From: Streptomyces sp. P3
GTDB lineage: Bacteria; Actinomycetota; Actinomycetes; Streptomycetales; Streptomycetaceae
DNA: 64,000 nt
Assembly (NCBI RefSeq): GCF_003032475.1
Contig: NZ_CP028369.1
Location: 6,448,001-6,512,000, forward strand
Reading direction: 5' to 3'
This document shows positions 47,288 to 48,763 of the stretch, in pieces. Position 1 is the stretch's first letter; each line of letters starts with the position of its first letter. The notes beneath the pieces were generated by a model. It saw only the letters and a program-made list of their open reading frames with translations, made no database searches and was not told where the DNA came from. The position numbers were made by a program, and so were the translations under genes.

Positions 47288-48763
47288 GTGACGATCGAGG
47301 AATGCCTGCTCGGCCCTGCCGGACTCCCGGAACTGGCCATCGCGCCCGAGGAGTTGCGGCGTGCCCGGGAACTGGCGCTCACCCGCGACCACCCGGTCGA
47401 CCTCGCGGACGCCGTGATCACCCATGTGGAGCGCTTCGCCCGGGAGCGGGGCCGGCCGGCCGTCCGGGACGCCCGCGGCCGCCTCGACTACGCCGAACTT
47501 GCCCAGGAAGCACGTCGGCTGGCGGCCCTGATGGAGCGTTCGGGGGTCGGCCCGGGCAAGGTCGTCGCGGTCGGCGGTGCGCGCGGCACCACGGTCGTCG
47601 CCGCCTTCCTGGCCACCGAGCTGCTCGGTGCGCTCTACCTGCCTGCCGACGCCAACTGGCCCGCCCGCCGGGTCGCGGACGTCCTCGACACGGCCGGGGC
47701 CGTCCTGCTCCTCAACACCGACCCGGACGCCGTCTCACCCTCGCTCGCCGAGGGCGCCGCGCAGGCCGATGTCCCGGTCGTCCGCGCCGCCGAGGCCGCC
47801 GGCCACGAGCTCTGGCAGGGCCCGGCCCGGCTGGAGAGCCAGGGCCAGCCCCGGTACGTGTTGTTCACCTCCGGCTCCACGGGCCGGCCCAAGGGGGCCG
47901 TGGTGGAGCACCAGGGCATGCTCAACCATCTCTTCGCCAAGGTCGTCGACCTCGGGTTGACTGGCGACGACGTGGTCGCGCAGACGGCCCCGCTCGGCTT
48001 CGACATCTCGATCTGGCAGATGCTCTGCCCGCTGCTGGTCGGCGGCGAGGTCAGCGTGGTCGCCGACGCGACCGCCCACGACTCGGTGGCCTTCGCCCGC
48101 CTCGTCGACGAACACCGCGTCACCGTCGTGGAGTTGGTCCCCACCATGGTCCGCCTGCTGCTGGACGACCTGGCCGCCGCCCCTGAGGCCGGGCAGCTGG
48201 CCTGGCTGCGCTGGATGCTCGCCACCGGCGAGGAGCTGCCCACCGAGGTGGCCCGCCGATGGCTTGAGGAGATGCCCCAGGCCGGACTGGTGAACGCCTA
48301 CGGCCCGACCGAGTGCTCCGACGACGTCACTCACCACACCGTGCTCCCCGCCGACCTCGGTCTCCTGCGCCTGCCGATCGGTACGCCGCTGGTCAACACC
48401 CAGCTCTACGTGCTGCGCGGCGAGGAGGACGGCTGGCAGGCCTGTGAGCCGGGCGAGAGCGGGGAGTTGTTCGTCGGCGGGGTCGGCGTGGGGCGCGGGT
48501 ACGTCAGTGACCACGACAAGACCCGGGCCGCGTTCTTCCGCGACCCGTTCCGGGACACGCCCACCGGGCGGCTCTACCGCACCGGTGACGCCGTGAAGGT
48601 CCTTCCGCAGGGGGCGCTGCAGTACCTCGGCCGGGTCGACCGCCAGGTCAAGCTCGCGGGAGTCCGGATGGAGCTCGGCGAGATCGAGGCGGTCCTGCAG
48701 CGTCACCCCGCGGTCGGTGCGGTCGCGGTCGTCGTGCACGACTTCGCCGTCGGCCGCCGCTAG
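47288..48763 (+). CDS. Stand-alone NRPS adenylation protein lacking A9-A10
   Basis: This 491-residue protein has motifs FTSGSTGRPKG (A3), NAYGPTE (A5), GELFVGG (A6), YRTGD (A7) and GRVDRQVKLAGVRMELGE (A8), but ends at HDFAVGRR. The A9 region and the A10 NGK lysine (residue 517 in GrsA numbering), needed for adenylation, are missing, and there is no carrier domain. The pocket reads D-I-W-E-L-T-A-D-D; acidic E278, D330 and D331 suit a diamino acid, so Dap is likely given the divergent sbnAB genes. The end is not a visible frameshift: two strong hairpins follow directly. NRPS modules 3 and 5 keep exactly the missing C-terminal piece. Start GTG 47288 has AAGGAG 7 bases upstream. Confidence 0.93.
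   Translation: MTIEECLLGPAGLPELAIAPEELRRARELALTRDHPVDLADAVITHVERFARERGRPAVRDARGRLDYAELAQEARRLAALMERSGVGPGKVVAVGGARGTTVVAAFLATELLGALYLPADANWPARRVADVLDTAGAVLLLNTDPDAVSPSLAEGAAQADVPVVRAAEAAGHELWQGPARLESQGQPRYVLFTSGSTGRPKGAVVEHQGMLNHLFAKVVDLGLTGDDVVAQTAPLGFDISIWQMLCPLLVGGEVSVVADATAHDSVAFARLVDEHRVTVVELVPTMVRLLLDDLAAAPEAGQLAWLRWMLATGEELPTEVARRWLEEMPQAGLVNAYGPTECSDDVTHHTVLPADLGLLRLPIGTPLVNTQLYVLRGEEDGWQACEPGESGELFVGGVGVGRGYVSDHDKTRAAFFRDPFRDTPTGRLYRTGDAVKVLPQGALQYLGRVDRQVKLAGVRMELGEIEAVLQRHPAVGAVAVVVHDFAVGRR

Follow-up and report, generated by a model that had tools for sequence, protein, structure and literature searches.

Can an adenylation (A) domain be divided between proteins, so that one free-standing core is completed by halves left behind in the modules that it loads? 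The question is raised by the window analysed here, a 64,000-nt stretch of the Streptomyces sp. P3 genome (contig NZ_CP028369.1), in which a free-standing A core is encoded at 47288-48763 on the + strand and two A-less NRPS modules retain an A9-A10 half. The core is 491 aa in length, and its gene has a GTG start codon at 47288, preceded by AAGGAG, and a stop codon at 48761-48763. The AMP-binding profile (PF00501) matches it over nearly the full span of the profile (positions 5-383 of 384), and AMP-binding_C was absent from it in the Pfam search (E 0.001). The chain contains A3-A8 and ends at HDFAVGRR, eight residues past the AVVV strand that comes after A8 and just short of the catalytic lysine of its family. 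The N-terminal fold of an NRPS A domain is thus present, and a same-chain C-terminal subdomain carrying the A10 lysine is not; A9 and A10 were looked for in all three + frames of 48601-49020 without a match. The description of the core given in the first-pass annotation, as an A3-A8 protein ending at HDFAVGRR and lacking A9 and A10, is borne out by these results. That annotation had also named a full-length Dap-activating A domain elsewhere in the cluster as something that would speak against its reading. The best other match to the core in its own genome has at most 45 % identity (whole-genome search), and the search therefore revealed no full-length twin. Shortly 3' of the stop codon stands a perfect inverted repeat of 18 bp (48785-48802 / 48815-48832), read by eye, which is terminator-like but has no T run.

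The two A-less modules lie at approximately 6633-8500 and 11741-13580 (both on the + strand; modules 10 and 12 of 19, provided that gene order is the order of action). Both have the architecture C, short linker, A9-A10 half and T, with A1-A8 missing. The halves are located at 8058-8234 (A10 lysine codon at 8205-8207) and 13157-13333 (A10 lysine codon at 13304-13306), also on the + strand, and both read RRLVAYVV...LPESMVP...NGKVDT...LPAP. These positions agree with the spans of 8049-8238 and 13148-13337 assigned to the remnants earlier, and the Pfam counts concur, with AMP-binding_C domains outnumbering AMP-binding domains in both NRPS stretches (first stretch: 4 C, 3 AMP-binding, 4 AMP-binding_C and 5 carrier domains; second stretch: 3 C, 2 AMP-binding, 3 AMP-binding_C and 3 carrier domains). 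On the assumption that all four NRPS genes, including those to the left of the window, form one assembly line, it comprises 19 modules, of which 17 have an A core and the other two lack one. The linker and A9-A10 half form a 289-nt stretch that is identical at 7942-8230 and 13041-13329 (both +) amid flanks that differ, as though linker and half had been copied together in one piece. In the genome behind L092 and L106, too, the two remnant pieces have identical protein sequences, and the identity in both genomes suggests gene conversion of the linker-half unit.

A protein search with the core gave 1309 homologues, of which the best 120 were listed and examined. All of these 120 lack A10, and their chains end 18-33 aa after GEIEA (18-24 aa in 116 of the 120), so that neither the core nor any of the best 120 of 1309 homologues is a complete, self-sufficient trans-acting A domain with its own A9-A10. 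Eighty genome loci were fetched, comprising 50 truncated-core loci, 20 loci of full-length relatives (L044 to L072) and 10 loci of more distant A domains (L070, L071 and L073-L080), the last being treated as module domains and not annotated singly. A core was classed as truncated if it ended within 80 residues of A8, and this applied to all 50. A frameshift or sequencing error restoring A10 at 48763, which had been foreseen as a possible objection, is ruled out by the empty + frames, by the common end in the best 120 of 1309 homologues and by the 50 loci. In a tree of 53 rows obtained by a quick search, 23 truncated cores fall in one clade (support 99), and a stand-alone family of 40 rows (23 truncated and 17 full-length; support 100) stands apart from the module A domains. 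Since the truncated cores form a single clade within the stand-alone family, the tail was probably lost once, and the sequence comparison indicates that the truncation is a conserved trait and no error. The full-length stand-alone relatives share the clade of the core but retain A9-A10 in frame in 19 of 20 loci. The remaining one (L063, Streptomyces sp. I6) reads with a break between A8 and A9, which is possibly a sequencing error.

Conservation of the core peaks just before the cut. Across 72 aligned cores the invariant columns include residues of A3, A5, A7 and A8, and mean column conservation is highest at aa 451-484 (0.953), the preceding blocks having values of 0.66-0.84. When the core was modelled as a single chain, pLDDT was 47-54 in the blocks of aa 451-490 and at least 86 before them, except for 63 at aa 191-200. 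The A8 tail (aa 452-485; 48641-48742, +) is thus the most conserved part of the core, yet in the model it has no confident fold on its own.

Truncated cores and remnant modules occur together in dozens of other actinobacteria. An A-less module with the missing half was found for 48 of the 50 truncated-core loci, in 37 within the locus and in 11 elsewhere in the genome (L001-L006, L008-L010, L015 and L051), these 11 being cases in which remnant and core share a genome and not always a contig. Each of the 37 loci with an internal remnant has one such module within its flanks. The database check proposed in the first-pass annotation, a search for sbnAB-linked cores with the same end beside C-remnant-T modules, has thus yielded 50 truncated-core loci, 37 of them with the remnant inside. 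No remnant module was found in the genomes of Actinomadura logoneensis (L014) and A. formosensis (L040), both of which are drafts with contig ends less than 4 kb from the core. A C-remnant-T module was present in 0 of the 20 full-length-relative loci, of which the flanks were covered. Among 392 genomes of the genus of the window, the core was found in 3 (E 1e-150) and C-remnant-T matches (E 1e-90) in the same 3 and in one more, G316. By their coordinates the 3 are the genome of the window and those of L002 and L004 and add no new positive cases, the value of this sample being the 389 genomes without the core. The remnant of G316 (L155), a genome without a truncated core at E 1e-150, keeps part of A8 and has H at the A9 position and HGTPDH instead of the A10 lysine, and is therefore not an intact half. 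In Actinomadura sp. OS1-43 (L006, L042) two truncated cores and remnant modules are found on separate contigs of one genome.

The remnants are well conserved and carry a signature of their own. Over 32 loci their mean pairwise identity is 0.813. The intact A9-A10 pieces of these loci reach 0.646 (first piece) and 0.640 (last piece), values that may be lowered because the pieces need not be the same module in every locus, and the 37 residues directly upstream of the remnants reach 0.415. The A10 lysine is present in all 55 remnants (53 distinct). At the A9 position, which precedes M in LPxxMVP, every one of the 55 remnants has a non-aromatic residue (S, A, P, T or Q), where all 154 intact pieces (145 distinct) from the same clusters have an aromatic one (Y, H or F); the 19 full-length stand-alone relatives are again non-aromatic there (A, P, V, T or S). 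These counts are of pieces and not of independent events, L042 and L117 being one module. In the other groups the A9 residue is Y in 5 of 5 intact pieces of the full-length loci and aromatic in 29 of 30 pieces of the distant loci (A in the other). Directly after the lysine, 53 of 55 remnants have V or I and 147 of 154 intact pieces have L; the 19 full-length stand-alone relatives all have I, T or V there. Since 21 of the 30 pieces from the distant loci have a residue other than L at this position, the second mark is local, and the A9 residue is left as the one sharp mark. Left out as unlabelled were the pieces at L046 4309, L014 10356, L034 14663, Alit19 22654, L095 341 and L116 1534, of which Alit19 22654 resembles one more remnant, with a greater length of debris. 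The 55 do not include the remnants of L129 and L130 either, the latter being known from a 95 % match that spans the entire query.

In a tree, 52 of the 53 distinct remnants fall in one clade (99/100; bootstrap not settled), and one remnant of A. litoris, which also has S at A9, arises apart. When the three signature columns were masked the single remnant clade was gone (4 changes, largest pure group 20), and the case is therefore not rested on a single clade. The tree places the remnants among module pieces, and at A9 they resemble the tail of the stand-alone family, a combination consistent with module halves that were adapted to a foreign core. The dN/dS of the remnants (median 0.34 over 1351 pairs, up to 1.16 among close pairs) was not relied on because it is drawn from 61 codons at very high GC.

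It is very probable, on the combined evidence of the cut, its co-occurrence with remnants and their signature, that the core is completed in trans by the A9-A10 halves of the A-less modules at 8058-8234 and 13157-13333. The cut presumably falls within the folded small subdomain. The pocket and the ATP site would come from the core, together with the initial portion of this subdomain; the remainder of the subdomain, including the A10 lysine, would come from the module. Docking would likely close the small subdomain, whereupon the adenylate could form and the amino acid, probably L-2,3-diaminopropionate (L-Dap) from the SbnA/SbnB-like pair described below, would pass to the T domain adjoining the borrowed half. 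The process would be a fragment complementation in trans, with core and module half making one A domain at the module being loaded. The first-pass annotation had proposed such a completion with two loading sites for one core; conservation, co-occurrence and signature support it in part, and docking and catalysis stand as its predicted part.

A different role for the remnant, as a mere docking address or linker, with the lysine of the core coming from an ordinary A domain elsewhere or not being needed, is improbable. Trans A domains that serve A-less modules are known from the available text of two reports (PMC12400406, PMC7539972), and A. litoris has two A-less modules without any A9-A10, as such a role would allow. 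A plain address is opposed by the A10 lysine, which is kept in 55 of 55 remnants and lost in the lone C-remnant-T module from a genome without a truncated core (n=1), and by an A9 residue of the type found in the stand-alone family and unlike that of the intact modules. Still less credible, to the point of being nearly dismissed, is a relic, with a core gene in decay or misassembled and A-less modules that no longer work or are passed over. Partly deleted A domains do occur in some A. litoris modules, but a relic is opposed by the common end in the best 120 of 1309 homologues, by residues of A3, A5, A7 and A8 among the invariant columns of 72 cores, and by remnants at least as conserved as the intact pieces.

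Completion of the core in trans leaves its substrate and the number of its clients to be considered. Next to the core gene, and divergent from it, lies a gene for an SbnA-like PLP enzyme of the PALP family (46015-47145, -; PF00291), and beside this one for an SbnB-like dehydrogenase of the ornithine cyclodeaminase family (44996-46021, -; PF02423); the two enzymes are likely to supply Dap, the product of SbnA/SbnB. Among the 50 truncated-core loci, 48 have an SbnA-like match and 46 an SbnB-like one; both are missed in L046 and L051, where the stretch begins at the core, and the SbnB-like match also in L005 and L006. Both matches are present in 14 of the 20 full-length-relative loci. The best structural match of the core is the Dap-bound SulM A3. 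Its pocket code, which we take to be D I W E L T A D D by gramicidin synthetase numbering, with the missing lysine as the tenth residue, has the same residues as that of PvdL A3, presumably a Dab-activating domain. From the SbnA/SbnB-like neighbours, the SulM A3 match and the pocket residues, the substrate is probably L-Dap. That one core would serve both window modules follows naturally, since their remnants are identical over 289 nt and the halves themselves offer the core no distinction. An MbtH-like protein (52091-52327, +; PF03621) is a possible helper of the A domains. A split A domain that is real but whose core serves one module only, or activates another diamino acid such as Dab, is unlikely, though it has somewhat more in its favour than the readings discussed above. 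The pocket shared with PvdL A3, the single remnant module in the flanks of 37 of 37 loci and the SbnB-less loci L005 and L006 point that way, as does the close likeness of the Dap and Dab codes stated in the accessible part of a survey (PMC12283262). Against it stand the 289-nt identity, a genome without a second core of this kind and the frequency of SbnA- and SbnB-like genes beside the core (48 and 46 of 50 loci).

A broader scheme appears likely, in which actinobacteria keep one mobile core that is shared. Modules would have been made its clients by deletion of their own A core to the same loop and re-tuning of A9-A10; the leftover would be both docking address and catalytic half, one gene could feed any carrier, and clients would have arisen more than once. 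The client modules of Nonomuraea thailandensis and A. litoris contain A6-A7 debris, with A8 and the strand supplied by the core gone and A9-A10 intact. Two further A-less modules of A. litoris (L097, L108; also L125-L128) hold A6-A7 debris as well but are devoid of A9-A10; they are not explained by the split-core mechanism and may be dead or otherwise loaded.

Several elements of this arrangement have counterparts. In kutzneride biosynthesis a stand-alone A protein reportedly serves a module with a defective A domain (KtzN/KtzH). Contrary to the first-pass annotation, which knew of no system cut at this point, there is a published case: in the available text, the corallorazine A2 domain is cut between A8 and A9, with A1-A8 on one protein (Crz1) and A9-A10 followed by T on the next (Crz2), and is active only with both mixed (PMC11342130, 2024). 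A domain cut at this place can therefore work and needs both parts. According to the same text the corallorazine halves meet at an adjacent-subunit junction, collinear and one-to-one, and an N-methyltransferase follows A8 (PMC11342130). The A8/A9 cut also separates proteins here, but the core is a free protein from a separate gene and the halves, two per core, lie inside A-less modules between C and T. Capreomycin offers a likeness of another kind, in that a single L-Dap A domain (CmnA-A1) supplies two T domains, including that of an A-less module (CmnI); CmnA-A1 itself belongs to module 1 and was assayed in that form together with its MbtH-like partner, and the accessible text mentions no borrowed half (PMC12400406, 2025). 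The stand-alone A proteins Cal22 and Cal23 of WS9326A serve an A-less module in Streptomyces and are MbtH-dependent; that module is a C-PCP di-domain, and the portion of the report available mentions no truncation (PMC7539972, 2020). A free A9-A10-less core common to modules that keep the half was not found in the literature searched, in which few subscription journals were covered, and the same arrangement is absent from the accessible part of a review of irregular NRPSs (PMC8949500). Two further papers were considered as precedents and set aside as unrelated by what their available text covers, one dealing with a construct of PosA (PMC10522769) and the other being a review of Actinomadura metabolites (PMC10951976). 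Split A domains (corallorazine) and trans A domains that serve two sites (capreomycin) or an A-less module (WS9326A) are thus known already, and what looks new here is the shared, free-standing and widely conserved form of the split A domain.

If the reading is true, this would be, within the literature searched, the first widely conserved A domain with its halves on separate proteins and a core common to several modules. It would provide a natural split site and matched interfaces for NRPS lines charged by a separate core, and would make it testable whether the A10-bearing subdomain needs to be on the same chain. The two cores of OS1-43 would bear on interface specificity, through whether each keeps its own clients. 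For annotation it serves as a warning, as client modules look A-less or broken and the cores look truncated.

Other genes of the window touch on the product. A CmlA-like diiron beta-hydroxylase (39479-41278) and a hydroxyphenylpyruvate-dioxygenase-like protein (41438-42454) suggest beta-hydroxylated and hydroxyphenylglycine-type residues in it. In addition to the SbnA-like enzyme, the window encodes another PLP-dependent PALP enzyme, at 37087-38199 (-). In the NRPS at 20140-37053, two consecutive A domains (residues ~1517-2000 and ~2614-3030) are almost identical, which is a recent module duplication.
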